The translations under genes were made by a program, and so were the position numbers. A model generated the notes under the pieces. That model was not told the DNA's origin, did no database searches, and saw nothing but the letters and a program-made list of their open reading frames with translations. A stretch of DNA of 64,000 bases from Bacteroidales bacterium (lineage in GTDB: Bacteria > Bacteroidota > Bacteroidia > Bacteroidales > VadinHA17): NCBI GenBank assembly GCA_022865305.1, contig JALHSP010000147.1, positions 186,001 to 250,000 of the forward strand, in the 5' to 3' direction. Shown one piece after another: positions 1 to 20,196 of the stretch (position 1 is its first letter; every line of letters begins with the position of its first letter).

Positions 1-2
1 AT

Positions 3-707
3 TTCTCTTCGATAAGAGATAAAAATTATGGTAAGGATATCTTCTATTTTAATCTGTATGAATCTATACGACCTGATCCAGTTGCCTATTTAAAAGGAAA
101 GGTAACGGACAAAGAGACCGGCAGATTGCTGAAAGCAGATTACGAATTAATCAATTTGTCGACAAACAGGGTAACAGTTAAAAGTACCACTGATTCAGAT
201 GGAAGCTTCCTTGTTTGCCTTCCTGCTGGATTCAATTACGGATTGAATGTTACGAAGCCCGGGTACTTATTCTATTCAGAAAATTTTATGTTTGAGGGGA
301 AACATACGGTAATGGAGCCATTTATTAAAAGGATCAATTTAAGTCCGGTTAAAGTTGGAGAGAAGATGTTGCTAACGAATGTATTCTATGAGATTGATTC
401 GTGGGAATTAAAGAAAGAATCAATCGCTGAATTAAACAACCTGACCAGCCTGCTTTCTGATAACAAAGGTATAATCGTTGAAATAGGAGGGTACACCGAT
501 TCGACCGGTACTGATGAACACAACATGAGGCTGTCAGAAAAAAGAGCACTTTCTGTAGTTAATTATTTGATTAGTAAAGGTATATCTTCCGACAGGCTTA
601 AATATAAAGGATATGGGAATACTTTACCGATTGGTGATAATATTACTGTAGAGGGCAGAAAAATGAACAGGAGAACTGAAGCCAAAATTATCGGTAAGAA
701 ACAATAA
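3..707 (+). CDS. OmpA-family outer-membrane protein, 3' part only
   Basis: The reading frame is open from the first bases of the window, so the gene starts upstream and only its C-terminal 234 residues are present. The fragment begins with a stretch resembling the end of a PD40 beta-propeller, then a carboxypeptidase-regulatory-like beta-sandwich (around YLKGKVTDKETG), then a C-terminal OmpA domain containing GGYTDSTG and NMRLSEKRA, the usual peptidoglycan-binding signature. Proteins with this order are common in Bacteroidota, where they anchor the outer membrane to peptidoglycan and sometimes sit with T9SS or gliding loci. A TTG at 126 could be mistaken for a start, but the frame clearly continues upstream. 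A strong hairpin terminator follows the stop codon immediately. Confidence 0.85.
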   Translation, partial: FSSIRDKNYGKDIFYFNLYESIRPDPVAYLKGKVTDKETGRLLKADYELINLSTNRVTVKSTTDSDGSFLVCLPAGFNYGLNVTKPGYLFYSENFMFEGKHTVMEPFIKRINLSPVKVGEKMLLTNVFYEIDSWELKKESIAELNNLTSLLSDNKGIIVEIGGYTDSTGTDEHNMRLSEKRALSVVNYLISKGISSDRLKYKGYGNTLPIGDNITVEGRKMNRRTEAKIIGKKQ

Positions 708-738
708 AAATGGCCGTTTATTGGCAAACGGCCATTTT
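707..738. terminator. Intrinsic, probably bidirectional terminator
   Basis: A perfect 13-base stem, AAAATGGCCGTTT paired with AAACGGCCATTTT, with a 6-base loop, starts on the last base of the OmpA stop codon. The A and T runs at the stem ends serve either direction, so it can also stop transcription from the minus-strand kinase gene ending at 781. Confidence 0.85.
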
Positions 739-780
739 ATCTCATGTTGCAATGCATCCAGACATTGACAAAATCTGTTA

Positions 781-1593
781 TCAGATAGCAATCATGGTAT
801 TTACATATTTATTTATTGAAACTTCTGAGTTTGCTACCATTTTGATTGGTATTGAAAAATAGATACCACTTCCTGTCATACCATTACATTCAATCCAGAT
901 AGTCCCGCCCAGCAGTTGAATAAGCTTTTTGGCCAGGGTAAGGTTAATCGCTGAACTTGTATCATTGTGCTTGGTTAGCGATTCATTCAGATCCTCTGTA
1001 TGAAGAAATTCTTTGCATTTGAAATAACCCTGGCCGGAATCAAGAACATAAAAAGTCAGTTTATCATCCCTGAAATAATAACCAATCTTAATATATCCTG
1101 TTTTTGTGTTTTTAAGCGCATTATGAAACAAGTTGCGAAGTACCCTGAAGATTCTGTTTGAATCTATAAAAAATTCGGCCGTTTCATTATGATGATTTTC
1201 CGCTACAAAAACAAGATCCTTGTGTCCATCTTTCTTTATTATTTCCCTGAATTCGGAAAGAAGATCATCAAGGATATTATTGAGTTTACATACTTTTATA
1301 TCGGTTTTGGAATTACCAGAATCTATTATTGCTGAATCAAGAAAATTATCAAATAATCCTATCAGTTGCTCACATGAATTCAAGATTTGATTGCTGAATT
1401 CCTCCCGTTCTTCATTATTACATCCATTTTGATTCATGAGAAATGAAAATGCTACAATCGCATTCATATGAGTTCTCATTTCATGAGACATTCCGGTTAA
1501 AACCGGTAAACAATTAATCATACTGTTATTCCGTGAATTCACACCTTTGCAGTCATCACTTTTTCCCTGTGCTATATTAGTCACCGTGTTCAT
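781..1593 (-). CDS. Sensor-less histidine kinase
   Basis: This 270-residue protein has the core of a two-component histidine kinase. An H-box lies near the N terminus (MSHEMRTHMNAI, candidate phospho-acceptor His37), followed by a dimerisation helix pair, an N-box (RNLFHNALKNT), a G1 box (DSGQGYF) and a G2-like end (GSGIYFSI). No signal peptide, membrane segment, PAS domain or receiver domain is visible, so it is probably cytoplasmic and takes its input from another protein. It lies 39 bases downstream of the TPR membrane protein gene on the same strand and may share its transcript. No response regulator is adjacent. The kinase assignment is firm; the signal and target are unknown. Confidence 0.82.
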   Translation of the reverse strand: MNTVTNIAQGKSDDCKGVNSRNNSMINCLPVLTGMSHEMRTHMNAIVAFSFLMNQNGCNNEEREEFSNQILNSCEQLIGLFDNFLDSAIIDSGNSKTDIKVCKLNNILDDLLSEFREIIKKDGHKDLVFVAENHHNETAEFFIDSNRIFRVLRNLFHNALKNTKTGYIKIGYYFRDDKLTFYVLDSGQGYFKCKEFLHTEDLNESLTKHNDTSSAINLTLAKKLIQLLGGTIWIECNGMTGSGIYFSIPIKMVANSEVSINKYVNTMIAI

Positions 1594-1632
1594 TTCCTGG
1601 TCAGTAAGATTATCTAATAAACTGTAAATCAG

Positions 1633-2394
1633 CTACTTCAAATTTCTTAATATTTTTCTTGCATCCTTGCTGTAAATATTCTTTAAATTCTTTATATTAT
1701 TCAATTGTTCAATAGCCTGGTCCTGTTCGTCAGTTTTCAAATAGCATAACGCAAGGTACCATTGTGCATCCTCGATAAAGTAGTTATTATTATCTTTTAC
1801 AACTGTTCTGAATGACTGTTTTGCTACAGGAAAGTTTTTCATTTCAAAATTCGAAACTCCATATAATAAGGTCGTATTCATGTCGTCGGGTGTAATTTTC
1901 AGCACCTTTGTGAAATATATAGCCGCATTCTTGTAATCATGAACATTATAACAATCAATTGCATAACTGTAATCGATATTTAACTCGTCACTTAACTGCA
2001 ATTGTTCTGACCTCGTGCCAGTAGTAGTTTCATACGATTTATAGTAACGGTCAAAGATTTCATCATTAGTGAGGTTTCTGCTGCCTGTAAACACGGCAAT
2101 ACTTCCCAGGAGTACGAGTCCGGCAATCGCAGCTGCATATTTCATATTAATATGCTTACCCGGACTTTTTGCAGGAACTTCGGTTGCTCTTCTCTTCTCA
2201 ATCTCAGCAAGCTTACTTCTTAACTGGATGATATCATGATTTCTAAGGGCCAGATCAGTCTTCTTCCTGAACTCAACTTCATCACGAAGTTTTTTATTGC
2301 CCTCGAGCTCTTTCTGGAACCATTGTTTTTCTACTTCACTCATCTCTACGGCATTGTACCGCTCGATGAAATAGGAAAAGTCGATTGTTTTCAT
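1633..2394 (-). CDS. Membrane-anchored TPR protein, possible anti-sigma factor
   Basis: The 253-residue protein has a charged cytoplasmic-looking N-terminal segment (about residues 1-75), one membrane helix (about 80-100, YAAAIAGLVLLGSIAVF) and a C-terminal region of tetratricopeptide-like helices (about 135-250, including NAAIYFTKVLKITPDD). In Bacteroidota, proteins of this layout are often encoded near ECF sigma factors and act like anti-sigma factors, with the N-terminal part facing the cytoplasm. An ECF sigma gene lies in the same cluster at 6072-6665. The zinc-binding HxxxCxxC motif of classical anti-sigma factors is absent, so that role is inference from topology and context. It lies downstream of the leader-peptide gene on the same strand and 39 bases upstream of the kinase gene. 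Confidence 0.6.
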   Translation of the reverse strand: MKTIDFSYFIERYNAVEMSEVEKQWFQKELEGNKKLRDEVEFRKKTDLALRNHDIIQLRSKLAEIEKRRATEVPAKSPGKHINMKYAAAIAGLVLLGSIAVFTGSRNLTNDEIFDRYYKSYETTTGTRSEQLQLSDELNIDYSYAIDCYNVHDYKNAAIYFTKVLKITPDDMNTTLLYGVSNFEMKNFPVAKQSFRTVVKDNNNYFIEDAQWYLALCYLKTDEQDQAIEQLNNIKNLKNIYSKDARKILRNLK

Positions 2395-2614
2395 GATTAA
2401 TTTATCTTTAATAATAATTTAGTTTTACACTTCCAACATTTATCAAAACAACAATATTTCTATGTCAAACAACTGTATATTAAGTATATACCAAAACAGT
2501 ATACTTTGCTTAAAACATATATCTTTTATCCAGGCTAGCCAAAATGGCCTGTACTTTTATTCTCAATTTCTACAAGAGAACCAACGAAACAAATCCGCTA
2601 ATTAATATTTTAAA

Positions 2615-2752
2615 TCAAATCTTAACTGGTGGTTTAGGAAATGTTAAAGTTACTTCGGCACTGTCTCCGCCACGTACATTAATCATTTCTTCATTGGATA
2701 AAGCAAACTCAACTAAAATGTCTTTTGACTTTTGGATCTTCAGGGTTTTCAT
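2615..2752 (-). CDS. Double-glycine leader peptide, putative exported peptide precursor
   Basis: A 45-codon minus-strand gene begins with MKTLKIQKSK and carries FALSNEEMINVRGG, ending in Gly28-Gly29. It matches the double-glycine leader consensus at Leu -12, Ser -11, Glu -8, Met -7, Val -4, Gly -2 and Gly -1. Cleavage after Gly29 would release a 16-residue peptide, DSAEVTLTFPKPPVKI, which has no cysteine and contains three prolines. Such leaders are the substrates of C39-peptidase ABC exporters, and one is encoded 4 kb away at 6796-8982. The gene starts at ATG 2752 and stops at TGA 2615-2617; no clear Shine-Dalgarno is seen, as is normal in this phylum. The gene is too short for routine calling, and a longer antisense reading frame covers it. 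Function of the mature peptide is unknown; bacteriocin, signal peptide or protease substrate are all possible. Confidence 0.72.
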   Translation of the reverse strand: MKTLKIQKSKDILVEFALSNEEMINVRGGDSAEVTLTFPKPPVKI

Positions 2753-2815
2753 AATTTAAGATTTTAGTATTGAATTAATTCAGGGTTATACACTCTTTTT
2801 ATTATTCATTTTCAA

Positions 2816-2847
2816 TACTACATGTCAGTAACCCCATGTTTGTGACA
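2816..2847 (-). promoter_or_regulatory. Candidate ECF-type promoter or operator for the leader peptide
   Basis: Read on the minus strand, TGTCACAAAC is followed after a short GGGG-containing spacer by TGACATGTAGTA, about 60 bases before the leader-peptide ATG. The two TGTCA/TGACA arms form an inverted repeat with a 15-base spacer (2823-2827 and 2843-2847). The two-block arrangement would fit an ECF-sigma promoter; the dyad would also fit a repressor site. This is pattern recognition only, with no second copy noticed in the window. Confidence 0.35.
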
Positions 2848-2932
2848 CAAAAAAACAAAAAAAAATTGAATTATTTTAAACATTAACAGAAAATCAGTTA
2901 CTTATGGATTAAAAATCTTAAAGAAAAAACAG

Positions 2933-2940
2933 TAGTTTTG
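2933..2940 (+). promoter_or_regulatory. Candidate -7 element for the CHAT gene
   Basis: TAGTTTTG matches the Bacteroidota -7 consensus TAnnTTTG and lies 75 bases before the ATG at 3016. No convincing -33 element is visible at the usual distance. Confidence 0.35.
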
Positions 2941-3015
2941 ATGCTGTTAATGCATTTTGAATAGAATAACAGGGAAAAAATCCGGAAATCTGTTTTTTGG
3001 ACTTAAAAGATTCTT

Positions 3016-6000
3016 ATGTTCAGAATTTTAAAGCTTTCTTTTTTGGCATCGTGGCTGATGTGCATCTCATTTAAGCCAGCGGATATTGATAATTCGCGGC
3101 CTTATGGTATATGGCCAACCGAGATTGCAATCCAGCAAAGAAATCCGGACGAATCATCCGAAATTCAAAAGATTGCTGCTTTACTTCAGAGACTGAACTC
3201 CAGACGAGATCTAGAAGGTATACAACGTCTTTCCGATAGCTTAAAAGAATCAATAGAGAAGATTCTTCCGGATAGTTCAATTTTAGGTGAATCATACTAT
3301 TTTGTCGGAGTTTGCAATTTACTTACAGGCAAATATAATGATGCAATTACCTGGTTGAAACGATCGGTTTCCGTTAAAAACAATCTCAATCTGACAGATG
3401 AATATTCAGCTAAGAGTAATTATAATATAGGAGTAGCGTACAACTACCTCGGTGAATTTACCCGGATGAAGAATTATATGCTGGAATACATCCGGATTAG
3501 TAAAATTATATACAGTGAATTTAGTCCTGAAGTCGCCTCCGGTTATACATATCTTGTAAGTGCTTCGATAGAACTTCAGGAATATGAGAGTACCATAAGC
3601 TATGCATCAAGTGCACAGGATATTGTAAAAATTAATAAAATTGCCTTGCACGAAGACGAACTAAGTAACCTATATGCTACTGTAGGAACATGCTATGGCA
3701 GGATGTCCGACTATGCAAAGGCACGGATTTATTTTGAAAAAGCTGAATCTGTTCTGAATACCAGTCGTAATGTTTCAGGCGAAAACTATATTAGTCTCAT
3801 TAATAACCTTGCTATTATATATGGAAATCTTGGACTGACTGATAAACAAAGCTATTACTATGAAAAAGGAATTGCTCTTGCTCAGGTCAGTAATTCATCC
3901 CTTGCATATAACCTGGTTAATAGCTATGCTGTATTTTTGGGAAATACAGGACAAATCATAAAAGGAGAAAATTTATTATCTGGTTTAGTGGAAAAAGCCA
4001 GAAACTTTTATGGGATTAATTCAAGAGATTATATCGAGGTGCTTAATAATTTTGCAAATTATTTAAGGGTTTATAAAAATGACAATATTAATTCTCTTAA
4101 AGTTTATTCAGATTGCATCAATTACCTGAAGAATCATGATGAAGAGGTCATCCTGAGAGATCCCGTTAATATTGGATATGCACTGGCTCTTTCAGAAAGT
4201 GGTGAATCTCTGATGGCCCTCGAAATAATCCAGGAACTCCTTTTCTATGAGCTTGATATGAATATTGAGGATAAACTTTATGCCAATCCTGAGCTGATTT
4301 CATTGAAAACCGACAGAAAATCCCTCAATATTTTAAGAGCCAAACATGATATCTTATGGGATATTTATTCAAAATCAGATAAATATGCAGCACTCGAAGC
4401 TGCGGCAAGTACCTCCGAACTTTTGATTTCACTCCTTGAGAAAGTCAGAATCAATATCAGTGAGGAAGAGAGTCGTCTTTTACTTGGAGACCGTTACAGA
4501 GATTCTTATCTTATTGCAATAAGGGATTTTGAATTGTGTTACAGGACTACTCAACAGATTCGGTTTCTTGAAAGAGTTTTTGAATATCTGGAAAGGAGCA
4601 AGGTAGCCGGATTACTGGCAGCAACCAGGGAACTGGACGCAGTTCAGTTTCATATTCCTCCCGATATTTCAGAGCTTGAAAAATCTTTTGAACGGGAAAT
4701 AAGCCTTTATAATGCAAAAATTAATTCGGAAAACAGCAAGGAATCACCAGATGAAAATTCCATTTCTGACTGGAATGAAAAAGTGCTGAAGGCTACCCAG
4801 AGAAGAGATTCTCTGGTACTTGAATTTGAAAATAAATATCCTGATTATTATTCGCTAAAGTATAATACCAGAGTCTTAAAAATGGATGAAATTCCCGAAA
4901 TCACAGGATGGAACAGCAACTATCTTAGTTATGTGGTATCAGATTCCTTACTTTATCTCTTTCTTGTCAACCGGAAACATCAGCAGCTGCTGACATTCAG
5001 GATAGATTCTGCCTTTTTTTACAAAATCCGGGAATTCAGGAGACTTCTGTCAATGCCTTCACCATCAGCAAATGCCAGAAAACCGTTTGAAGATTATCAG
5101 GAAATTGGATATGATCTTTATAAAATCCTGATAGAGCCAGTACAAAAATATTTCATTTCAGACAAAATATTGATATCGCCTGATAATATTCTTTCCTATC
5201 TGCCATTTGAAACTTTATTATCTGCAAAGTATTCAGGAACGGGTATTCTTTATCGTGAATTACAATACCTTATGAATGATTTCAGTATTTCGTATACATA
5301 TTCTGCAACGTTTATGGAAGAATTAGTGAAAAGAAACTATGGCAGAAAAAATGAACTGGTAGCATTCGCTCCAACTACCCCGGCAATCAGCATCGATTCT
5401 ATTCTTTTGAAAAGGCAACAACAGGGGAAAGGAATTTTATATGATCTTCCTTATGCCCGTCAGGAAGCCGAGTATATTTCTCATGTCACAGGAGGCAGGT
5501 CATATTTAAACAACGAAGCAAAAGAATCTGTGTATAAAACAGAATCCCCGAAGTACGATATTATTCATCTGGCAATGCACACATTTTTAAACGATCAGTA
5601 CCCGATGAATTCTGCAATGATATTTTCACAAATCAATGACACAACTGAGGATGGCATGCTGCATACATACGAGGTTTACGGGATACCCCTGAAGGCCAGA
5701 ATGGTTGTTCTCAGTTCCTGTAATACAGGTATGGGACTTTTATTTTCAGGGGAAGGTATTTTGAGCCTTGCCAGGGGTTTCCTCTATTCAGGGAGTCAGT
5801 CTGTGGTGATGTCAATGTGGGAAATTGAGGATAAATCAGGATTAGAAATAATGAAAATGTTCTATGATAACCTGAAGAGGGGAAATTCCAAAAGTGAATC
5901 CCTTAAAAAAGCAAGAGCAAATTACCTGGGGAAAGCAAATCAGATGACATCGCATCCATATTTCTGGTCATCCCTTGTTGTATATGGGAATAATGCACCC

Positions 6001-6099
6001 TTGTATAGTTCAAGGAAATACTTTATCGCAGGTTTTAGTATTCTTTTTGTCGCTGCTGCCTTACTTGCTCGTTATTTCCTGAAACGCAAATATTCCTGA
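3016..6099 (+). CDS. TPR-CHAT caspase-fold protease, exported and membrane-anchored
   Basis: The 1027-residue protein starts with a hydrophobic signal-like segment, continues with many tetratricopeptide repeats (about residues 70-450) and a helical linker, and carries a CHAT domain at about 700-985. The expected catalytic dyad is visible: His855 in IIHLAMHTF and Cys902 in LSSCNTG, followed by the conserved GEGILSLARGF and SMWEIEDKS blocks. A C-terminal membrane helix (about 1003-1020) ends in a basic tail (RKYS), which places the protease and TPR region in the periplasm if the signal segment is cleaved. CHAT proteases cleave specific partner proteins and are often activated through their TPR regions. 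The gene's last 28 bases overlap the tail of the convergent sigma-factor gene. The substrate is unknown; the neighbouring leader peptide or membrane TPR protein are candidates. Confidence 0.85.
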   Translation: MFRILKLSFLASWLMCISFKPADIDNSRPYGIWPTEIAIQQRNPDESSEIQKIAALLQRLNSRRDLEGIQRLSDSLKESIEKILPDSSILGESYYFVGVCNLLTGKYNDAITWLKRSVSVKNNLNLTDEYSAKSNYNIGVAYNYLGEFTRMKNYMLEYIRISKIIYSEFSPEVASGYTYLVSASIELQEYESTISYASSAQDIVKINKIALHEDELSNLYATVGTCYGRMSDYAKARIYFEKAESVLNTSRNVSGENYISLINNLAIIYGNLGLTDKQSYYYEKGIALAQVSNSSLAYNLVNSYAVFLGNTGQIIKGENLLSGLVEKARNFYGINSRDYIEVLNNFANYLRVYKNDNINSLKVYSDCINYLKNHDEEVILRDPVNIGYALALSESGESLMALEIIQELLFYELDMNIEDKLYANPELISLKTDRKSLNILRAKHDILWDIYSKSDKYAALEAAASTSELLISLLEKVRINISEEESRLLLGDRYRDSYLIAIRDFELCYRTTQQIRFLERVFEYLERSKVAGLLAATRELDAVQFHIPPDISELEKSFEREISLYNAKINSENSKESPDENSISDWNEKVLKATQRRDSLVLEFENKYPDYYSLKYNTRVLKMDEIPEITGWNSNYLSYVVSDSLLYLFLVNRKHQQLLTFRIDSAFFYKIREFRRLLSMPSPSANARKPFEDYQEIGYDLYKILIEPVQKYFISDKILISPDNILSYLPFETLLSAKYSGTGILYRELQYLMNDFSISYTYSATFMEELVKRNYGRKNELVAFAPTTPAISIDSILLKRQQQGKGILYDLPYARQEAEYISHVTGGRSYLNNEAKESVYKTESPKYDIIHLAMHTFLNDQYPMNSAMIFSQINDTTEDGMLHTYEVYGIPLKARMVVLSSCNTGMGLLFSGEGILSLARGFLYSGSQSVVMSMWEIEDKSGLEIMKMFYDNLKRGNSKSESLKKARANYLGKANQMTSHPYFWSSLVVYGNNAPLYSSRKYFIAGFSILFVAAALLARYFLKRKYS

Positions 6100-6665
6100 T
6101 ATTCCGGATCTTTTTTTACCACTTCCAGCAGAGCTTCCTTGCACAGGTATTTCTTCCGGCGTGCATACATCTCATTCTTAAGATTCATTTTTGAGGCAAT
6201 CTCTTCATAAGAATGCCCATCAGAAAATAAGGTTAATATAGCCTGGCAATCAGGTTTCAATTTCTGGAATGCTCTGCCGATAATTCTTTCAAATAAAGGA
6301 TCATTTGCATCCTCTTCTGTCTCGTCCGGAAAATCCAGTTCCAGTTCAGTCGTTTTTCTTTTTTTCCTGAGACTGGCACTCCAGATATTTCGGGCAATTC
6401 CGAAAAAATATCCTTTCAGATCTGTTGTCAGATTAAGGTTGTTCTCGGAAATCTGCCTGTAAAGTATAATAATTGTATCCTGAAAAACGTCGGAAACATC
6501 TTCTGCTGATCCGCTGTTTTTAATTACATGATTCTTAACTGTTTGAAAATAATTATCATACAGCCAATTCAGGGTTTTGTCATCCTGCCGTTTTATGCCC
6601 TCTATCAGGCTTGTATCTGAATTTTTATTAAACAACCCCTGCGATGATTGAGAATCAACTGACAA
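6072..6665 (-). CDS. ECF-type RNA polymerase sigma factor
   Basis: This 197-residue protein has a sigma-70 region 2 (about residues 25-95, including AEDVSDVFQDT and LKGYFFGIARN) and a region 4 helix-turn-helix (about 130-180, LKPDCQAILTLFSDGHSYEEIASKM), with no region 1 or 3. This is the ECF layout, close to the Bacteroidota ECF groups paired with membrane regulators. It is transcribed away from the exporter gene at 6796, sharing a 130-base divergent intergenic region, and its 3' end overlaps the convergent CHAT gene by 28 bases. The likely regulon is the surrounding peptide/export cluster, and the membrane TPR protein at 1633-2394 is a candidate antagonist; both are inferences. Confidence 0.88.
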   Translation of the reverse strand: MSVDSQSSQGLFNKNSDTSLIEGIKRQDDKTLNWLYDNYFQTVKNHVIKNSGSAEDVSDVFQDTIIILYRQISENNLNLTTDLKGYFFGIARNIWSASLRKKRKTTELELDFPDETEEDANDPLFERIIGRAFQKLKPDCQAILTLFSDGHSYEEIASKMNLKNEMYARRKKYLCKEALLEVVKKDPEYQEYLRFRK

Positions 6666-6795
6666 ATATAATATTTCCCCTATGGAAAACTATTTAAATA
6701 TCCCTTTAGCTTATGATTTTATATGGAATAGCGACATTTTTTAAATAAAATATAAATATCTTTACTTACAGTTAATTTATCTCCACAAACAAAAG

Positions 6796-8982
6796 ATGTC
6801 ATTCCCTTTTGTAAAACAACCTGACGCAATGGATTGCGGACCAGCCTGCCTGAAAATGGTTGCTGGATTTCATAAAGTGAATTTTTCCCTTGAAACACTT
6901 CGGAAAAAATGTTATATCACCAGGGAGGGAGTATCTTTTCTTGGACTTTCAGAAGCTGCCGATAATCTTGGCTTCCGGACCATGGGAGTGAAAATACCCT
7001 TTGAAATGTTGAACGAAAATGTGCCGTTACCATGCATAGTTCATTGGCGGCAACGACATTTTATTGTGGTTTACAGGATAAAAAATGACAAAATATGGGC
7101 TGCTGACCCTGCAATCGGACTGGTAAAGTACACCCGTGATGAATTTATCCAGAACTGGGCATCGACACTTTCTGATGGAAAGCCTGCAGGACTTGTATTG
7201 ATAATTGAACCAACACCTGCTCTGTATGAAAAAGAAAGTGAACACGAAAAATCACAAGGCTTCAGATTCCTTTTAAAATACTTCCGGCTATACAGAAAAT
7301 ATCTTTTCCAGTTACTCCTGGGTCTGCTACTGGGAAGCTGTATTCAGCTTGTTATCCCTTTCCTTACCCAATCGATCATTGATATTGGTTTGAACAATAA
7401 TGACATAGGCTTTATTTACCTGATACTTCTTGCCCAGCTTGCTCTTGTTATCGGAAGATTATCAGTAGAATTCATAAGAGGTTGGTTGCTTCTCCACATT
7501 GGAACCAGGGTAAATGTTGCCATTATTTCCGGCTTTTTACAAAAACTGATGTCTCTGCCTATAGCTTTCTTTGATACAAAGCTGACCGGAGATATCCTCC
7601 AGCGTATCGATGATAACAACAGGATAGAAGAATTCCTGACATCAGCAAGTCTGGCTATTTTATTCTCTTTCTTTAATCTTATTGTTTTTGGAATAGTACT
7701 TGCAATTTTCAACCTAAAAATTCTGGTACTATTCATTGCAGGATCAGCATTATATATATTATGGGTTTCTCTTTTCATGAAATCCCGGGCCAGACTTGAT
7801 CATCAGCGTTTTAAACAGATGTCTGTGGTCGGGAACAAGATGATAAACATAGTTAATGGCATGCAGGAAATTAAGCTTACACAAAGTGAATTAAGCATGC
7901 GATGGGATTGGGAGAAGCTCCAGGCTTCCCTGTTCAGGTTAAAGATAAAGGGACTTGGCATTGCGCAATACCAGACAGCCGGCGCTACTTTCATAAACGA
8001 GGTGACTAACTTATTCATCACTGTAGTTGCCGCAACGGCTGTTCTAAAGGGAAGCATGACTCTCGGTATGATGCTTGCAGTTCAATTTATTATAGGCCAG
8101 TTGAACGTACCTGTCAGTCAGATTATTACTTTTTTCCGGATGTCTCAGGATGCAAAGATGAGCCTCGACAGGCTCGCAGAGGTACATGAGATGCAGGACG
8201 AGGAGCAGGAACTTGAGATGAAAGTGAGAAAACTTCCTGAAAAGAAGGACATATTCATAAACAATATTTCCTACCAGTATGAAGGACCTCACTCACCGTT
8301 TGCGCTGAAAGATGCAGATCTGTTTATAGAAGAGAATAAAACTACTGCAATTGTTGGTATCAGCGGGAGCGGAAAAACAACTTTGCTCAAATTGCTATTG
8401 GGATTTTACCAGCCGGTTAAAGGCGAGATACTTATCGGAGATACACGTCTGTCAAACATTAGCTTAAAGTTATGGCGCGAAAAAGTAGGGGCGGTGATGC
8501 AGGACGGATTTCTGTTCCCCGATACCATAGCGGCAAATATTGCACCAGGCAGCGGAGAGATTGATGAGGACAGGCTGGTTAAAGCTGCCGAATTGGCCAA
8601 TATAAAGGGATTTGTTGAATCATTGCCCCTCGGATATAATACTAAAATAGGAGCTAATGGCCATGGTTTGAGTGAAGGTCAACAACAACGGTTGCTTATT
8701 GCCAGGGTTATTTATAAGAATCCCGAAATTATCATTCTTGACGAAGCAACAAATTCTCTTGATGCCGGTAATGAAAAAGTGATAGTTGAAAATCTTGCCG
8801 GATTCTATAAGGGTAAGACGGTTATTGTTGTTGCTCACCGGCTGAGTACAGTAAGGGATGCTGATAAAATCGTGGTAATGGACAATGGAAGGATAGTTGA
8901 AACCGGCGCTCACGATTCGCTTATTGGCATGCGTGGAGCTTACTATCATCTGGTAAAAAACCAGCTGGAACTAGGAACCTGA
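6796..8982 (+). CDS. Peptidase-containing ABC transporter (C39 PCAT)
   Basis: The 728-residue protein combines leader-peptide cleavage with export. An N-terminal C39 peptidase domain (about 1-140) shows Cys14 in AMDCGPACL, His88 in RQRHFIVVY and Asp104 in AADPA, the complete catalytic triad. An ABC membrane domain with about six helices follows (about 165-450). The C-terminal ATPase has Walker A GISGSGKTTL, the signature LSEGQQQR, Walker B IIILDEATNSLD and the switch His in VAHRLSTV. Family knowledge: such proteins cleave after Gly-Gly and pump the mature peptide across the inner membrane. The HlyD gene starts 9 bases after the stop. The leader peptide at 2615-2752 is the obvious local substrate. 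Confidence 0.93.
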   Translation: MSFPFVKQPDAMDCGPACLKMVAGFHKVNFSLETLRKKCYITREGVSFLGLSEAADNLGFRTMGVKIPFEMLNENVPLPCIVHWRQRHFIVVYRIKNDKIWAADPAIGLVKYTRDEFIQNWASTLSDGKPAGLVLIIEPTPALYEKESEHEKSQGFRFLLKYFRLYRKYLFQLLLGLLLGSCIQLVIPFLTQSIIDIGLNNNDIGFIYLILLAQLALVIGRLSVEFIRGWLLLHIGTRVNVAIISGFLQKLMSLPIAFFDTKLTGDILQRIDDNNRIEEFLTSASLAILFSFFNLIVFGIVLAIFNLKILVLFIAGSALYILWVSLFMKSRARLDHQRFKQMSVVGNKMINIVNGMQEIKLTQSELSMRWDWEKLQASLFRLKIKGLGIAQYQTAGATFINEVTNLFITVVAATAVLKGSMTLGMMLAVQFIIGQLNVPVSQIITFFRMSQDAKMSLDRLAEVHEMQDEEQELEMKVRKLPEKKDIFINNISYQYEGPHSPFALKDADLFIEENKTTAIVGISGSGKTTLLKLLLGFYQPVKGEILIGDTRLSNISLKLWREKVGAVMQDGFLFPDTIAANIAPGSGEIDEDRLVKAAELANIKGFVESLPLGYNTKIGANGHGLSEGQQQRLLIARVIYKNPEIIILDEATNSLDAGNEKVIVENLAGFYKGKTVIVVAHRLSTVRDADKIVVMDNGRIVETGAHDSLIGMRGAYYHLVKNQLELGT

Positions 8983-8991
8983 AAATGTAAA

Positions 8992-10281
8992 ATGAAAACG
9001 AACAAACCAGAATTAATATATTCAGATCCTGTTAAAGAAATCATGGGTAATCCTCCCCGAAGAATACTCAGGTGGGGTACATCTGTATTATTCGGGGTAT
9101 TCGTATTGTTTCTGATTTTCGCATGGCTCATAAGGTACCCTGATACTGTGCCGGCTCCTGTTGAAATCACAACCGTAAATCCTCCTGTAACGCTTGTCAG
9201 CAAAATAACCGGCCGGATAATAAAAAAATATATAGATGAAAAAGATACTGTTGCCCCCGGAAAACTTCTTGTAGTGATGGAAACAGCTGCATCAATAGAG
9301 GAGGTGACAAAGCTGAAGCAGATTGTTGACACTATTAAGAGACCGGAATTTCTCTCCACTGAACTTCTTCCTGATTTTTCAGAGCTTGGTGAATTACAGG
9401 TTTATTGGGCTTCTTTCCGTAAAAAGCTGTCGGATTTCAACAATTATGTTACCAATGATTTATACGGAAGTCAAATAACATCAACTAGTAAAGAAATAGA
9501 TGAAATTTTAGTTTATATAGGAAGGGTGAAGGATAAGGAAAAGTTATATGCTGAAAATCAGCGGCTTGAGGTAAAAAAATATGCGAGAGACTCGTCTCTT
9601 TTTGCAAGTGGAGTGTTTTCTGAAAGCGAACTTGAGAAATCCCGGCAGACTCTTATCAGGATTAATATTGAACTCCAGGATGTCAGACTGGATCATTCAT
9701 TGAAGTCAATCGAACTGGCACAAAAAAATCAACTTCTGCAGGAATTCAGGATTAAACGGGTAGTAGATATGGAGAAATTCTATTCTGAACTTAACGAATT
9801 GTTGCTTAATCTGAAAGCTCAGATGAAGATATGGGAAAATACCTACACGCTTGTATCACAAATAGCTGGTATTGTAACATTTACTAAAATAATGAGTGAA
9901 AACCAGTCGGTAACAAAAGATGAACCTGTTCTTAGTATTGTACCTCTGGAAACGGGTGACTTTGTAGGCAGGATAAACCTGAAAATGCAGCGTTCAGGTA
10001 AAGTCGATACCGGGCAGACAGTGAATATCAAATTAAGCGGATACCCTTATCTTGAATATGGAATGGTGAGGGGTGTTGTAAAATCCAAATCTCTCGTTCC
10101 CGCAAGTGATGCATATGTAATTGAGATCTACTTTCCTAACGGGTTGACAACATTATACGGTAAAAAACTCGACTTCACGCAGAACATGCAGGGTACTGCA
10201 GAAATAATTACTGAAGATTTAAGACTTCTCCAGAAGATAGTAAATCCTTTCCGGCACCTGATCTCAAAGAATAAAAGATAG
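8992..10281 (+). CDS. HlyD-family periplasmic adaptor of the peptide exporter
   Basis: The 429-residue protein has a short cytoplasmic N terminus, one membrane helix (about residues 28-48), a lipoyl/barrel-sandwich start (VSKITGRIIKKYIDEKDTV), a long coiled-coil region (about 110-285) and a returning beta region with a membrane-fusion-protein signature (GRINLKMQRSGKVDTGQTV). It would link the C39 ABC transporter to an outer-membrane channel. No TolC-like gene is present in the window, so the third component must be encoded elsewhere. It is co-oriented with the exporter at a 9-base gap and is followed by a short hairpin terminator, so the two genes form a closed transcription unit. Confidence 0.9.
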   Translation: MKTNKPELIYSDPVKEIMGNPPRRILRWGTSVLFGVFVLFLIFAWLIRYPDTVPAPVEITTVNPPVTLVSKITGRIIKKYIDEKDTVAPGKLLVVMETAASIEEVTKLKQIVDTIKRPEFLSTELLPDFSELGELQVYWASFRKKLSDFNNYVTNDLYGSQITSTSKEIDEILVYIGRVKDKEKLYAENQRLEVKKYARDSSLFASGVFSESELEKSRQTLIRINIELQDVRLDHSLKSIELAQKNQLLQEFRIKRVVDMEKFYSELNELLLNLKAQMKIWENTYTLVSQIAGIVTFTKIMSENQSVTKDEPVLSIVPLETGDFVGRINLKMQRSGKVDTGQTVNIKLSGYPYLEYGMVRGVVKSKSLVPASDAYVIEIYFPNGLTTLYGKKLDFTQNMQGTAEIITEDLRLLQKIVNPFRHLISKNKR

Positions 10282-10298
10282 CCTGATCGCAGGCGTTT
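10281..10298 (+). terminator. Short intrinsic terminator after hlyD
   Basis: GCCTG and CAGGC form a five-base stem with a four-base loop directly after the stop codon, followed by GTTTTA. The stem is short, so termination may be weak. Confidence 0.45.
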
Positions 10299-10314
10299 TA
10301 CACACCAGGTATGG

Positions 10315-10986
10315 TTAAAGGGTCGTAAAGCTTTCATTATCCCCGTATCCTGTTTTTCCGGCGCTATTAGTCGCATAGGCCCGTACATGATACTTGGTAT
10401 TTGCCGATAACCCGGTCAGAATGCTTGAAAAGCTGCCGAAGCTGGTGCCGTCTGTAGTTATGCTGTTATCTATTGTTGGATTAGCTTTGGTGGCCCAGCA
10501 TACACCACTGGCTGTTACAGGTGCCCCACCATCGCTGCTGATATTACCACCGCTTAAGGCGGTGGTTTGAGTTATCTCAGAGATTTTTGTCGTAGAAATA
10601 ACTGGGAGTGATGGTTCATTTGTGGAAAAATATTTTTCTTTCCCATAAGCATATTCATTTCCATTTTTAACGTAAGCTTTAATATAGTATGTAGTCCCAC
10701 CTGCCAGGTCATGCAGTTCACTGATAAATAATCCAGTATCTCCAGGAACTCCCAGTGATGTTTTTAAACTGGTATAACTTACATTTGGTGATTTTGCATA
10801 ACAGTGACCATGTTCAGTGATTCCTTCGCCAAGATCAATTATCAAACCCGTAACTTCTGCTGAATTAATCTGGATATCGGTCACTACACCTGTTGAAACC
10901 ATCATCTCTTTCACTGGCTTAGTACATTCAGAGAAAAAGATCAATCCTGACAGGAGGAACAGCAGGATCAGTTTTCTGTTAAACAT
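10315..10986 (-). CDS. Fibronectin type III-like surface lipoprotein
   Basis: The 223-residue product begins with a signal peptide ending at a probable lipidated cysteine (FFSECTK). It then carries about two fibronectin type III-like beta-sandwich repeats; the second ends with TKYHVRAYATNSAGKTGYG, the usual form of these repeats in Bacteroidota surface proteins. It probably sits on the outer membrane as a binding or spacer protein. It lies 43 bases downstream of the caspase-like gene on the same strand and may be the last gene of a three-gene operon. No catalytic domain is seen. Confidence 0.75.
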   Translation of the reverse strand: MFNRKLILLFLLSGLIFFSECTKPVKEMMVSTGVVTDIQINSAEVTGLIIDLGEGITEHGHCYAKSPNVSYTSLKTSLGVPGDTGLFISELHDLAGGTTYYIKAYVKNGNEYAYGKEKYFSTNEPSLPVISTTKISEITQTTALSGGNISSDGGAPVTASGVCWATKANPTIDNSITTDGTSFGSFSSILTGLSANTKYHVRAYATNSAGKTGYGDNESFTTL

Positions 10987-11029
10987 GGTCTTTTCAATTT
11001 ACTGATATCTGAATTAAATCTTTAACTGT

Positions 11030-11944
11030 TTAATCTCTGAGTATAAAAATAAAATCACCTCCTTCGTCCCCGACATCTTTTATTTCTCCAAACTGCGGTA
11101 CTACATTACTATTATTTATCACTGCTATCTTGAAGCTGCTGAATAATTGCTCGGATGAAAGATATTTTTCCGTATTATTCTGCAACCTCTCAATCAGGTA
11201 CTTAAGGAAAGCGCTCTGATCGGGTACCTCAGAAAGTGTGCCGCTTGTCATCGCTTTTCTGCTCGGAAGCTCATATAATTTCCTGATGGCAGCAGGTACT
11301 TCGTCACTGAAAGCACCACGGGTTTTTAATATTGATCCGCCAAAACAGGCATCGGAAATTAGCAGTGTGTGCTTTGATTTGATTTCGCGCAGGTAATCAC
11401 GAAGTGTACTGTTCCGGAACCAGGCAAGCTTAGAGTTCTTCCTGGCATCGGAAGGAAGCCAGAAGCCTATCTCAGATGCGCTATCCCATATCCCGTGTCC
11501 CGCAAAGAAAATCAGAAAATTATCATTCGGGCGAACTATGTTTGCAAAGTAATCGAGCGCACCCACAATATCAGCCATCTTGGCATCCTTTATAAAAGTA
11601 ACATTTTCCTTATCAAAAATGTACCTGGTTGTGATGGTATTATAAAACATCTCAGCATCCCTTAATGGCCAGTTAAGAGGATTAAGCGTCGGATCGGTAT
11701 AATTGTTTATACCGATAATAAGAGCATAATATTTCCCACCTGGAAACGGAAGCTCAAGGTTTACTTCTGGGCGAATAATTTCACTGTCTGGTGAAATAAA
11801 TGGATTCTCGTAATACCTAAGTTCCTGTTTAACCTTATTGTTTATCCGGACTGTTGCCTTACCGCTTCCGACAACCTGCGCGGAAATATGTGTTGTACAG
11901 ATCAGAAAAAATGTAATTATATAAATAAAGAGCTCCTTTTTCAT
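11030..11944 (-). CDS. Exported caspase-family (C14) protease
   Basis: The 304-residue protein has an N-terminal signal peptide (cleavage expected near ISAQ) and a caspase/metacaspase p20-like domain from about residue 70. The start of the fold is clear (YYALIIGINNY), and the catalytic dyad is His150 in FFAGHG and Cys200 in SDACFGGS. This predicts a periplasmic or surface cysteine protease cutting after a basic or acidic residue; specificity cannot be read. It lies 4 bases downstream of the 248-residue envelope protein gene and is certainly co-transcribed with it. It is the second caspase-fold protease near the peptide exporter, after the CHAT protein at 3016-6099. Confidence 0.88.
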   Translation of the reverse strand: MKKELFIYIITFFLICTTHISAQVVGSGKATVRINNKVKQELRYYENPFISPDSEIIRPEVNLELPFPGGKYYALIIGINNYTDPTLNPLNWPLRDAEMFYNTITTRYIFDKENVTFIKDAKMADIVGALDYFANIVRPNDNFLIFFAGHGIWDSASEIGFWLPSDARKNSKLAWFRNSTLRDYLREIKSKHTLLISDACFGGSILKTRGAFSDEVPAAIRKLYELPSRKAMTSGTLSEVPDQSAFLKYLIERLQNNTEKYLSSEQLFSSFKIAVINNSNVVPQFGEIKDVGDEGGDFIFILRD

Positions 11945-11948
11945 TTTA

Positions 11949-12695
11949 TTAAAAGGTCAAGCTTAAAGTAATCAGCGGAGTACCAGAATTATAGACCGGA
12001 GTTGGCTTCAAGGAAAGGTTCAGATTCTGCAGATGCTGATACCTGTTCGGCGTAAAAGTAACCCATAAAATATTCACGCCCCATATTGCGGCACCTGAAC
12101 ACAGCAGAGCAACAGCATTATTATATTGTCTTCTTGAGTGTTTAAACAGATCAGCCCGCACCTTTGCATCGTCCGCTTCACTTCTGTAGTTATCATAGGT
12201 CGCAACATAATCCTGATAACACAAATATCCGCCCGCCAGAGTACCGTAAAATGCCAGGCCGGTCAGCCACCATGGCTTACCATTGCTGATATTTGTCTGT
12301 CCCCATCCGGGAAAAATTATCGACCGGAGTATCATTGAACCTCTGTAGAAGGATTTCATATATTTTTCAGCTTTTACTTCAACAAAAATATCTTCATCCA
12401 AAAAGATGGAATCCTGTTTAGGGATCCATATTATTTTTTTACTGTTACCTCTTTTAACGTTATATCCCACATCACCTGATAGATTTTTTGCTTCGATAAT
12501 CTCTCCGTTTGCTCTTTCCATTTCAACCCAAATATAAAATTGATCTTCAGGATTCTGGGCAATGATATTATAGAATATCAACAATTTAGTACCGTCAAAC
12601 ACCAGCCTTGGTTTAGTTAACTGAAAATCCTGAGAATAGGATTTAAAGGAAAAGAAAAGAAAGACCAGGAAGAATATAAATCGCTTCTTCTTCAT
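11949..12695 (-). CDS. Envelope protein with DUF5683-like membrane region
   Basis: The 248-residue protein starts with a signal peptide (ending near KSYSQ). A beta-rich region follows (about 25-110), then a hydrophobic section with the phrase IIFPGWGQ and nearby WW, typical of DUF5683-type proteins, and two or three membrane helices (about 125-215). The C-terminal residues form beta strands ending in TLSLTF, like an outer-membrane-associated protein. It is encoded 4 bases upstream of the caspase-like protease, so it probably acts with that protease as an anchor or activator. No enzymatic residues are visible. Confidence 0.6.
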   Translation of the reverse strand: MKKKRFIFFLVFLFFSFKSYSQDFQLTKPRLVFDGTKLLIFYNIIAQNPEDQFYIWVEMERANGEIIEAKNLSGDVGYNVKRGNSKKIIWIPKQDSIFLDEDIFVEVKAEKYMKSFYRGSMILRSIIFPGWGQTNISNGKPWWLTGLAFYGTLAGGYLCYQDYVATYDNYRSEADDAKVRADLFKHSRRQYNNAVALLCSGAAIWGVNILWVTFTPNRYQHLQNLNLSLKPTPVYNSGTPLITLSLTF

Positions 12696-12881
12696 GGGCT
12701 GATTTTTGATTATTTATGCGAATATAAAACCTTTCACATGGCAAAATTAATAAAATTCTTAACCATGTATAAGGATTTTTAAACATTTGAACAAATAGGA
12801 TCATTATTGAAACAAGTTAAATCCATTAACTTTTTTCAAAAAACTAAATTTGTATTTCTGATTTTCCCCGTGAAAAATTAT

Positions 12882-13055
12882 TTACTTTCTTGAATATGGT
12901 TCATAATCATCATCTTTTGATGAAGATGAAAATGAAGAATCAGTTGTTGTCCCCGCGCTGGATTTACCCTGGTTTTTCTTGACATATTTCTGATACATGC
13001 GAATACCCAGAACGGCGAAAGCTACGGATATAAGAATAATTTCAATTGCATCCAT
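12882..13055 (-). CDS. Small single-span membrane protein
   Basis: A 57-codon gene has one N-terminal membrane helix (AIEIILISVAFAVLGI), a short basic stretch (YQKYVKKNQ) and a Ser/Thr/Asp-rich polar tail ending in YEPYSRK. The topology predicts a helix with a cytoplasmic tail. Codon use resembles that of its neighbours and the stop is TAA. It lies alone in the 650 bases between the caspase operon and the DUF349 gene. The rest of that interval (12696-12881 and 13056-13351) is AT-rich and shows no other gene. The function is unknown; the gene is called from composition and topology only. Confidence 0.55.
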   Translation of the reverse strand: MDAIEIILISVAFAVLGIRMYQKYVKKNQGKSSAGTTTDSSFSSSSKDDDYEPYSRK

Positions 13056-13351
13056 TTTAATGTCTTTATAAATTCAATACTGTTATCCAAAGAACAGTCA
13101 GTACAAAAATTATTTTCAAATATATAATTTATTCGTACAAGTCATACCCGGTATACAATAAAACTGGTTTTAGATATTAGATTGATTTTCCGTCAATTCT
13201 GCTTTGATTGCCATTAAAATTCAATATATTATTTATTTATATCAAAACTTTGAGTATTATTAAATATTTCAATATTTTCGTAATCTGAAAATTCCATGGC
13301 TTGCCATGGTGCAGGATACTGTTGTTGAGCTCAACTATTATAGGATTGATT

Positions 13352-15340: not shown

Positions 15341-15373
15341 TAATAACAAAATCATTTAGTTGACCCTGAATAA

Positions 15374-16987
<1,614 letters not shown>

Positions 16988-17034
16988 GGTTTTGTGTCGA
17001 AGTTAATCAGAAAGTAATATTTTAAACAGGAAGC

Positions 17035-19005: not shown

Positions 19006-19050
19006 ATAATCAGCAACGTAAATTGTCATTTCAGTATATTCATTCTTGTT

Positions 19051-19084
19051 ATTGAAAATTGGAGGGTCAACTCCAATTTTCAAT
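19051..19084. repeat. Perfect 14-bp inverted repeat between yidC and the LacI gene
   Basis: ATTGAAAATTGGAG is followed after a six-base loop (GGTCAA) by its exact complement, CTCCAATTTTCAAT. The hairpin may end yidC transcription, but there is no T tract after it on either strand. Because a LacI-family gene begins 66 bases later, an operator role for autoregulation is also possible. Confidence 0.7.
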
Positions 19085-19149
19085 AAAAGTTAAAAATCTT
19101 TAATAAAATCCTCATTTTACAAAAAAGAACTAAATTTAATATTTCCAAT

Positions 19150-20196
19150 GTGACGGGGAAAATGAGGAAAAAATTTAAAAACAAAGATTTAGCTGTTAAA
19201 CTCGGTGTATCAGGTACTCTGGTATCACTTGTGCTAAACAATAAAGCTGATCAGCATGGTATAAAGAAAGAGACACAGGAAAGGGTATTTTTACTTGCCC
19301 GGCAAATGGGATATTTTGATTCACTTGATGAAAAGAATGAAATTGCCCCTGTTGAGCAAAAGCCAGGTATCCTCGGAATGATAGTTCCCTCTCTCAACGA
19401 TTCTTTTGTAATGGGCATAACTCCATACATGCAGAAAGCATTCTCGAGTATCGGTGTTGGATTCTCCATTGTTACTAAAGATCCTGATGACCTGAGATTT
19501 GACAGGATGGTGACAGCTTTTAAGAAATTTTTTAGCGGATTGATACTTGTTGGTGAGGCAGCTGATGATAATACTGTTCGTACACTCAGGTCTTCAGACT
19601 ATCCATTCATACTACTTGAAAAAACATTTAAAAACCTAAGGCTTAATACTGTATGTACTGATACAATGGCCGGATCCAGACTGGTTGTTAATCATATTCA
19701 AAAACTCGGGTATAAAAATGCTTTAATTGTTGCCGATCGTAAATCAATACTTTTAGATAATCCTGAGTTTAAGGATATTTTTGATGCATTAAGCCAGAAT
19801 GATCATATAATTAAATCCCAGGTAGTTGAAATAGATACTCCTCGTTCAGGTGATGAAATTGATTTTGAACAGTTGGAGAAATTCCTGCGTCCGCCATTCA
19901 GGGCAGATGTCTTAATCGTACTTCATGCAGACCTGGTGTACCCGATAATGGCAATGTTCAGGGGGAAAAAATTGCGTGTTCCTCAGGACATTGCGATAAT
20001 ATCGATGGAAGAAGGTCCGGGATTTGATCTGATGTTCTCTCCTGTAACATGTCTCAGGAAGCCTCTTCCGGGGATAGCGAGTAAAGCAGCCAATATGATA
20101 TGGTCAGAGGTCAGAAATGCAGGAAAAGGGAAATTTAAACGACAGGTGAACTTACCACCGGAACTGATAATCCGAAACTCCTGTGGGACATTATAA
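19150..20196 (+). CDS. LacI-family transcriptional regulator
   Basis: The protein has an N-terminal LacI-type helix-turn-helix (KDLAVKLGVSGTLVSLVLNN) with the hinge region after it, followed by a periplasmic-binding-protein-like sensor domain (GILGMIVPSLNDSFVMGI onwards) and the terminal PPELIIRNSCG typical of the family. The start is either GTG 19150 (348 residues) or ATG 19162 (344 residues), and ATG 19162 is about as likely. The effector is unknown. The only adjacent downstream gene is the decayed transglutaminase-like gene 14 bases on, so the original regulon may be partly lost. Confidence 0.9.
   Translation: MTGKMRKKFKNKDLAVKLGVSGTLVSLVLNNKADQHGIKKETQERVFLLARQMGYFDSLDEKNEIAPVEQKPGILGMIVPSLNDSFVMGITPYMQKAFSSIGVGFSIVTKDPDDLRFDRMVTAFKKFFSGLILVGEAADDNTVRTLRSSDYPFILLEKTFKNLRLNTVCTDTMAGSRLVVNHIQKLGYKNALIVADRKSILLDNPEFKDIFDALSQNDHIIKSQVVEIDTPRSGDEIDFEQLEKFLRPPFRADVLIVLHADLVYPIMAMFRGKKLRVPQDIAIISMEEGPGFDLMFSPVTCLRKPLPGIASKAANMIWSEVRNAGKGKFKRQVNLPPELIIRNSCGTL

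Follow-up and report, generated by a model that had tools for sequence, protein, structure and literature searches.

The DNA studied here is a 64,000-nucleotide stretch of a Bacteroidales genome, which we call the window (positions 1-64,000; all coordinates are in window numbering). It carries a gene block encoding, in this order, a histidine-kinase-like (HK-like) protein, a single-pass membrane TPR protein (hereafter TMTPR) and a double-glycine (GG) leader peptide on the minus strand, a TPR-CHAT protease on the plus strand, an extracytoplasmic function (ECF) sigma factor on the minus strand, and a C39-peptidase ABC exporter (PCAT) followed by an HlyD adaptor on the plus strand (Table 1). A first-pass annotation of this DNA had described the block as a secreted-peptide system with its own protease, sigma factor and exporter. 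Profile searches and open reading frame (ORF) checks of the window recovered every gene it had listed, in place and with the catalytic residues of both protease and exporter intact, and four features were added: the HK-like gene, a promoter-like box, the C-terminal anchor of the CHAT protein and a second triad of protease, TMTPR and sigma genes in the same genome (L004; L-numbers are labels of the loci read).

The window CHAT protein matched Pfam PF12770 with an E value of 7.7e-53 (180.2 bits, against a gathering score of 24) and has the His855-Cys902 dyad. The sigma gene scored 61.3 bits with TIGR02937 (sigma70 regions 2 and 4; cut-off 42.9). A C39 domain is present in the PCAT, in which Cys14, His88 and Asp104, which we take to be the C39 triad, are kept, and the gene of the GG-leader peptide lies nearby. 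Since the peptide, TMTPR and HK-like genes share a strand and are closely spaced, they likely form one operon, with the HK-like gene last. The nearest named relatives found were uncultured Bacteroidales, Bacteroidia and Bacteroidota metagenome-assembled genomes.

Table 1. Coordinates of the genes, sites and predicted elements of the locus in the window
Feature	Position	Strand	Remarks
Soluble HK-like protein (HisKA + HATPase_c)	781..1593	-	40 bp downstream of the TMTPR gene
TMTPR, proposed anti-sigma factor	1633..2394	-	predicted ~80-aa cytoplasmic N-terminus, transmembrane segment ~85-104, periplasmic linker, TPRs
Codons Arg128-Ser129, predicted CHAT cut site	2008..2013	-	juxtamembrane linker of TMTPR
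45-aa GG leader peptide	2615..2752	-	leader ends at Gly29; 16-aa core DSAEVTLTFPKPPVKI
Conserved ECF-type promoter-like box	2819..2847	-	TGTCACAAA-N12-GACATGTA, oriented to the peptide gene
TPR-CHAT protease	3016..6099	+	N-terminal hydrophobic signal-like segment, C-terminal transmembrane anchor
CHAT Glu817 codon	5464..5466	+	proposed S1 acid, covaries with partner Arg128
CHAT His855 codon	5578..5580	+	catalytic
CHAT Cys902 codon	5719..5721	+	catalytic
CHAT Asp939 codon	5830..5832	+	second proposed S1 acid
CHAT C-terminal transmembrane anchor and basic tail	6013..6096	+	helix 1000-1026 in the model
ECF sigma factor	6072..6665	-	tail-to-tail with CHAT, 28-bp overlap
PCAT	6796..8982	+	Cys14/His88/Asp104
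HlyD-family periplasmic adaptor	8992..10281	+	

Three CHAT genes are found in this genome. In addition to that of the window, the second triad, L004, consists of a TPR-CHAT gene on the forward strand and TMTPR and ECF sigma genes on the reverse strand, plus an HK-like gene, with no PCAT seen in the 18 kb read; the third CHAT gene, L005, has neither a sigma nor a TMTPR gene nearby. We refer to loci of the window's kind as type A and to those of the L004 kind as type b. A CHAT homologue of any kind (E<=1e-20) was found in 84 of 98 genomes of the window's family. After removal of duplicate CHATs, which applies to all Bacteroidales neighbour counts, both TMTPR and sigma genes lay at most four genes from the CHAT gene in 60 of the 67 distinct type A loci, in 16/16 type b loci, in 7/8 loci of Marinifilaceae (Marinifilum, Labilibaculum) and in 7/14 of other Bacteroidales; in 8 of the 15 loci without both partners, the sequence upstream of CHAT ends within ~400 bp. 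The locus is thus not a chance assembly, given the presence of CHAT in those 84 genomes and the association of type A CHATs with TMTPR and sigma (60/67) and with a PCAT (59/67).

At the level of the phylum, 113 of 296 genomes matched the CHAT protein at E<=1e-30. Among 60 stretches read from this search (L177-L236), both partner genes were near 24/38 CHATs with a membrane anchor vs 4/25 unanchored ones. The values were 35/57 vs 4/31 in a wider set that also includes L297-L316, picked via searches with anchored CHATs, and the own-family CHATs L005 and L093-L096; in this set L213 and L226 were scored as unanchored by the hydropathy threshold, although their tails resemble membrane anchors. These data indicate that the core of the system is an anchored TPR-CHAT protease together with a TMTPR and an ECF sigma factor, and that this core is recurrent across Bacteroidota. 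Comparison of neighbourhoods across the phylum had been proposed by the first-pass annotation as a check; the protease, TMTPR and sigma genes indeed recurred together, but homologous clusters in which no peptide was found also exist, an outcome which it had named as speaking against its proposal. A convergent single-transmembrane neighbour was also seen beside four unanchored CHATs (L182, L186, L187 and L189), with an ECF gene in three of the four; such loci are possibly a second form of the module.

The predicted membrane topology places protease and partner on the same side. TMTPR has one transmembrane segment, and lysine and arginine residues are more numerous before than after this segment in 117/122 proteins, which predicts a cytoplasmic N-terminus and TPRs on the outer side. 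In CHATs for which the full length was at hand, hydropathy and lysine/arginine distribution revealed a C-terminal transmembrane segment in 70/74 TMTPR-paired vs 0/19 unpaired proteins, followed by a basic tail in 69 of the 74 paired ones, and an N-terminal hydrophobic segment in 58/74 paired CHATs (start codons not curated). From the anchor and N-terminal segment of CHAT and the orientation of TMTPR, the two proteins should meet in the periplasm. The arrangement known from proteolytic anti-sigma systems, i.e. a single-pass partner with its N-terminus inside and a protease outside, was found here by hydropathy and lysine/arginine counts only.

The periplasmic linker of TMTPR contains a candidate cut site. 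Arg128 is present in 89/89 aligned proteins from type A, type b and other Bacteroidales loci, with Ser at the next place in 76 of them, and TMTPRs of types A and b differ greatly outside this site. In the AlphaFold2 model of TMTPR (mean predicted local distance difference test score, pLDDT, 84.0), linker residues 126-131 fall below 50, being one of two such segments, so that Arg128 is not obviously conserved for the fold. When the linkers of 34 distant TMTPRs were read by eye, an Arg followed by a small residue was noted in 26; the site holds Met in 5 and Lys in 2, and the remaining protein (L189) has no clear site. These observations suggest that CHAT probably cuts TMTPR after Arg128, in a disordered periplasmic linker.

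The identity of the linker residue was found to covary with one position of the CHAT domain. In the set of CHATs with a TMTPR in the stretch read, residue 817 is Glu in 62/62 proteins whose partner has Arg in the linker and in 0/13 of those with a non-Arg partner (10 Met, 3 Lys), in which it is A, L, S, T, I, V or M. Labels (Arg or not Arg) were read by eye from each TMTPR linker. In the first set, 5 pairs had Met, 2 had Lys and 44 had Arg; 21 of these Arg pairs were chosen to represent the larger number of type A, type b and other Bacteroidales loci. Once the rule had been formed, 22/22 further pairs fitted it (10/10 and 12/12 in two sets); these were labelled before residue 817 was looked up and exclude duplicates of earlier loci (L237, L238, L248, L251, L253, L259, L262 and L301). 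L216 and L198 were first set aside and relabelled as Arg after Glu had been seen, and without both of them the count is 60/60. The linker of L213, which was labelled Met, contains a further Arg (TRL) a few residues N-terminal to the site, and in L204, L210, L215, L224 and L303 the TMTPR gene lies some genes away from CHAT, which makes the pairing less sure. Column 817 was the most informative of the CHAT domain on the partner label, followed by 853, 867 and 939; the last of these is Asp in 61/62 Arg pairs, whereas non-Arg pairs have 10 Glu, 2 Asp and 1 Asn. Since His855 and Cys902 are retained in all 13 CHATs with non-Arg partners, the change in these proteins seems to be one of specificity rather than activity. 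On a tree calculated without column 817, the label changes four times, and at least two of the changes are forced by well-supported branches.

Judging from their places in the sequence, before the catalytic His and after the catalytic Cys, Glu817 and Asp939 would match the S1 acids of Arg-specific relatives. According to two articles, an acid in the S1 pocket of separases and gingipain R binds the P1 Arg (PMC4626109, PMC10317155), with separases carrying Glu/Asp where gingipain R has Asp163 (PMC4626109), and the P1 Arg has a conserved Asp as its counterpart, which in human separase is Asp2070 (PMC10317155). The latter article also states that separase substrates require a P1 Arg and that the region cut is unstructured (PMC10317155). 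Two groups of loci are worth describing beside this rule. A Met-Ser linker site occurs together with a non-acidic CHAT residue 817 in L192, L197, L203, L298, L307, L309 and L310, which may represent a Met-specific branch. The proteins with one transmembrane segment encoded beside the unanchored CHATs L186, L187 and L189 have an Arg-Ser, placed farther from the membrane, that would fit the Arg-Glu rule; in the L182 neighbour no clear site was seen in the stretch printed. None of these four was counted among the Arg/Glu pairs.

The first-pass annotation had suggested that CHAT cleaves either the membrane TPR protein or the peptide to release the sigma factor. The first option is favoured by the conserved Arg128, its covariation with Glu817, the predicted periplasmic location of both proteins and the recurrence of the triad. 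For the second, several peptide cores do have Arg or Lys near their end, but no Arg is conserved in the aligned cores, so the peptide was not retained as first choice of substrate and its cleavage by CHAT appears unlikely. A broader form of that idea holds that CHAT acts on the peptide or on some other protein and that the Arg of TMTPR is kept for another reason, e.g. docking. Clan CD proteases can indeed have several substrates; nevertheless, docking would leave aside that Arg128 lies in a low-confidence linker and varies together with a CHAT position apparently equivalent to the S1 acid of relatives with Arg specificity, and we regard this explanation as improbable.

Analysis of the region between the peptide and CHAT genes revealed a conserved promoter-like box. 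We found 83 such spacers in type A loci, 57 of them different. The 9-mer TGTCACAAA is invariant in 57/57 non-redundant spacers, and GACATGTA follows at a fixed spacing, each of its bases being conserved in 50 or more of the 55-56 rows that extend this far. ECF -35/-10 promoter pairs look like such boxes. The element is therefore ECF-like and would act as a promoter into the peptide gene, presumably used by the sigma factor of the locus. Within the family, the box was found at no more than one mismatch in 59/98 genomes, with a single hit for the reversed control. When the 81 family sites were compared by hand with the CHAT matches, 50 were no more than ~0.5 kb away from one, and the other 31 lay at other places. 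For six exact sites away from CHAT that were read, the distance from the start of the box to the first long ORF with an ATG start is 44-90 bp (starts not curated). From their motifs, we take the products of these ORFs to be an HlyD-like adaptor (L351), a FISUMP-like lipoprotein (L348) and a hypothetical protein (L347); in L349, L350 and L352, from three genomes of one genus, the box precedes what by motif is presumably a secreted S74/tail-fibre-like protein, followed by a protein with a type IX secretion system (T9SS)-like tail. In other lineages, TTGTTAC was found upstream of CHAT in 12/16 type b loci and AGGTAACC in 8/8 Marinifilaceae loci, both resembling the type A box only loosely.

Where 600 bp or more of sequence upstream of CHAT was available, a GG peptide was encoded within 900 bp upstream of CHAT in 56/62 type A, 11/14 type b, 5/5 Marinifilaceae and 6/11 other Bacteroidales loci, in comparison with 10/545 control windows; three of the six type A misses (L041, L047 and L145) do carry a peptide under looser rules. 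The leaders are alike, and the cores (~12-30 aa) are often proline rich and mostly without Cys. The ratio of nonsynonymous to synonymous substitution rates (dN/dS) was 0.16 for the leader and 0.30 for the core (60 close, non-independent pairs), values by which the core is under purifying selection. Marinifilaceae peptides have 30-33 aa and occur in up to four tandem near-identical copies before CHAT, with four copies each in L165, L166, L167 and L172, mostly ~168 bp apart.

Export of the peptide by the PCAT is plausible given the GG leader, the adjacency of the genes and the occurrence of the PCAT mainly in type A loci. A PCAT was near CHAT in only 1/16 type b and 0/8 Marinifilaceae loci, and a GG peptide was found at 0/87 phylum-set CHATs with enough upstream sequence. 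The peptide is thus not a universal signal of the module, and peptide and exporter come on top of the protease/TPR/sigma core as an elaboration in Bacteroidales. Their status as defining parts of the system, as first annotated, does not hold.

The same annotation had considered a role in competition. Along this line, the block could be a bacteriocin-like export cluster in which PCAT and HlyD secrete the GG peptide as an antagonist, with CHAT, TMTPR and sigma only regulating it on envelope stress. GG leader, PCAT and HlyD do adjoin in type A loci, and one relative has, close to two of its type b loci, GG peptides richer in Cys that point the same way. On the other hand, the module's own cores are short and mostly lack Cys, no further conserved gene was found among ORFs of at least 70 aa (a search for immunity genes was not made), the PCAT is present without a detected HlyD in 9/9 g10 loci read (L060-L068), and type b and Marinifilaceae loci keep the peptide with hardly any PCAT nearby. 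An antagonistic function is consequently unlikely, and the competition role receives no support. The Cys-richer peptides mentioned (L084 and L088, in one genome) are extra multi-Cys GG peptides, more bacteriocin-like than the peptide of the module itself.

Taken as a whole, we interpret the locus as a periplasmic proteolytic anti-sigma switch in which CHAT cuts TMTPR and thereby frees the sigma factor, with the exported peptide as likely ligand, a reading to which we assign a probability of roughly 65%. The anatomy and conservation of the genes, the membrane sides given by composition, the covariation and the box are read from the sequence, and sigma binding, the cut, the later proteolysis and peptide binding are inferred. 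The cytoplasmic N-terminus of TMTPR would hold the ECF sigma factor. Once activated, the membrane-anchored TPR-CHAT would cut the TMTPR linker after Arg128, just outside the membrane, as the covariation suggests, and further proteolysis, e.g. by a site-2 protease, would then free the sigma factor. The freed sigma factor would use the box to transcribe the genes for the GG peptide, TMTPR and the HK-like protein and, in relatives, some export and surface genes as well; because it would drive genes of its own module, the loop would be self-reinforcing. In the lineage of the window, the peptide, cut and exported by the PCAT, would most likely act in the periplasm as a ligand that sets CHAT activity via the TPR domain, the weakest step of the scheme.

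With regard to this last step, the switch may be right and its trigger a different one, namely envelope damage sensed by the TPRs of CHAT, the peptide being only an output. The lack of a peptide at all 87 phylum-set CHATs would agree with this, and the conserved box makes the peptide gene a likely target. However, the position of the peptide gene is kept over several families, near-identical copies occur in tandem in Marinifilaceae and the core appears to be under purifying selection; we therefore hold a peptide that is only an output to be somewhat unlikely.

Several results weigh against the anti-sigma switch and its parts. Among the 90 Pfam families matched by 63 TMTPRs, the 25 commonest include no anti-sigma family, and the best 50 Foldseek hits of TMTPR are TPR-type folds, with no recognised anti-sigma fold among them. 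Assignment of TMTPR to a recognised anti-sigma class was rejected on these grounds, and its anti-sigma role consequently rests on context, topology and analogy. The window TMTPR has a sub-threshold match to DUF4179 (E 0.034), and the N-termini of type b TMTPRs are longer and different. The covariation amounts to about four independent changes, a number with which a sign test cannot reach significance, and the Fisher p value of 7.9e-15 for the Arg/Glu association ignores kinship. Residue 817 is also Glu in 19/19 unpaired CHATs, among which L189 and L220 were left although a TMTPR-labelled gene lies beside these unanchored CHATs, so Glu is the general state; in addition, three non-Arg partners hold Lys at the site though the Glu of CHAT is lost. 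This genome has one box site at no more than one mismatch, and the 71 sites found at three mismatches, vs 56 for the reversed pattern, are mostly background. That no peptide was found in the phylum set speaks against it as a universal signal. Finally, a single-transmembrane protein and an ECF gene also adjoin the unanchored CHATs L182, L187 and L189, so that the module is not strictly tied to an anchored CHAT. An apparent sigma-TMTPR fusion in L308 was discarded as the product of an over-long ORF start.

The lack of a recognised anti-sigma domain in TMTPR would also suit a positive partner or scaffold of the sigma factor, whose cleavage by CHAT turns the response off, and the position of TMTPR downstream of the box is possible for feedback inhibitors and co-activators alike. 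Even so, a single-pass protein with a cytoplasmic N-terminus encoded beside an ECF sigma gene is the usual anti-sigma layout, and that of TMTPR is predicted to be the same. Furthermore, in Craspase the partner cut by the CHAT protein inhibits a sigma factor, as stated in PMC10028731. We consider a positive partner very unlikely and retain TMTPR as the proposed anti-sigma factor.

Other features of the locus concern its surroundings. The HK-like protein keeps its phospho-acceptor His box, and the G2 place of its ATP lid is degenerate, reading NDTSSAINL-like in aligned type A orthologues; the G2 motif of histidine kinases is GTGLGL, and the type b HK beside L004 retains GTGLGLAI. In most type A loci read, the block is flanked by an OmpA-like gene on one side and by DUF349-PyrG on the other. 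In the window, genes for an FN3 protein, a caspase C14 and a DUF5683-like protein (10315-12695) lie between HlyD and DUF349; this group looks like an insertion in this genome, because DUF349 follows directly in most other type A loci read. Its caspase C14 has a match to the EACC1-associated type (E 5e-21) that is under the cut-off. An Rfam scan of window positions 1-16000 gave nothing above gathering scores.

Altogether, the first-pass interpretation was partly supported: the finding is real and larger than had been described, the gene composition of the window being a Bacteroidales elaboration of a wider module. A literature search, which covered few subscription journals, found no account of this module, and the wider protease/anti-sigma/sigma module is apparently undescribed. 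In PMC7406223, a class I anti-sigma domain is reported near 6% of Bacteroidetes ECF sigma factors, against a phylum average of 32%. The module offers a control mechanism for a recurrent subset of these sigma factors, for which it names a candidate protease, partner, bond and promoter. More tentatively, with somewhat less than an even chance, anchored TPR-CHAT proteins may constitute, across the phylum, one family of separase-like site-1 proteases that work in the periplasm, are specific for Arg and control ECF sigma factors by cleaving TPR anti-sigma factors of an unrecognised class; in Bacteroidales, a self-made exported peptide would be read by the TPR domain of the protease, giving a pheromone-sigma circuit without re-import.

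The proposed module shares traits with several known systems. As in RRNPP systems (Rap), a TPR protein and a short peptide are encoded close together; Rap proteins were also hit when the CHAT profile was searched against PDB sequences, but TPR proteins swamped that search, and TPR similarity alone is not kinship. Unlike RRNPP systems, which have a cytoplasmic TPR regulator and a re-imported peptide, CHAT is predicted to be outside by its N-terminal segment and C-terminal anchor, and the peptide would be recognised in the periplasm, with no need for re-import. The regulated proteolysis of DegS/RseA/RpoE and RsiW resembles the predicted periplasmic first cut of a single-pass protein encoded beside an ECF sigma factor, whereas here a CHAT cysteine protease of clan CD would take the place of the site-1 protease, and the proposed anti-sigma factor belongs to no recognised class. 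In a Foldseek search with the model of the window CHAT (mean pLDDT 84.5), the top three matches were human separase (9hn0) and the Craspase TPR-CHAT protein (8d9g and 7y8t, at ranks 2 and 3). The transmembrane anti-sigma factor DdvA (8rw5, 8rot) appeared at ranks 6 and 8, a match that concerns CHAT, not TMTPR, and has a high root-mean-square deviation (~29). With separase, the window CHAT shares helical repeats and a caspase-like domain and, as predicted, a P1 Arg in an unstructured stretch and an acidic S1; in contrast to separase, it is bacterial and predicted to be periplasmic and membrane anchored.

In Craspase (type III-E CASP: Csx29, Csx30 and CASP-sigma), Csx30 is an inhibitor of an ECF sigma factor and is cut by the TPR-CHAT protein Csx29, which is proposed to lift the inhibition (PMC10028731). 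The module likewise encodes a TPR-CHAT protein with an ECF sigma factor and a partner predicted to be cleaved. It differs in that its CHAT protein is predicted to be periplasmic and anchored, that the partner is a membrane TPR protein and that Arg is the predicted P1 residue, whereas the cut in Csx30 falls between residues 427 and 429. With the window CHAT, the Csx29 profile gave only 14.8 bits (E 0.009), against a curated cut-off of 300, none of the 11 window ORFs scanned matched a Cas effector or other Cas protein, and no CRISPR-like repeat array was found in window positions 1-20000; the module would work like Craspase but is not a member of type III-E. If the reading proposed here is true, CHAT proteases gain a substrate rule, Glu817 with a P1 Arg, and the Craspase layout of TPR-CHAT, inhibitor and ECF sigma factor sits within a wider, CRISPR-free class.

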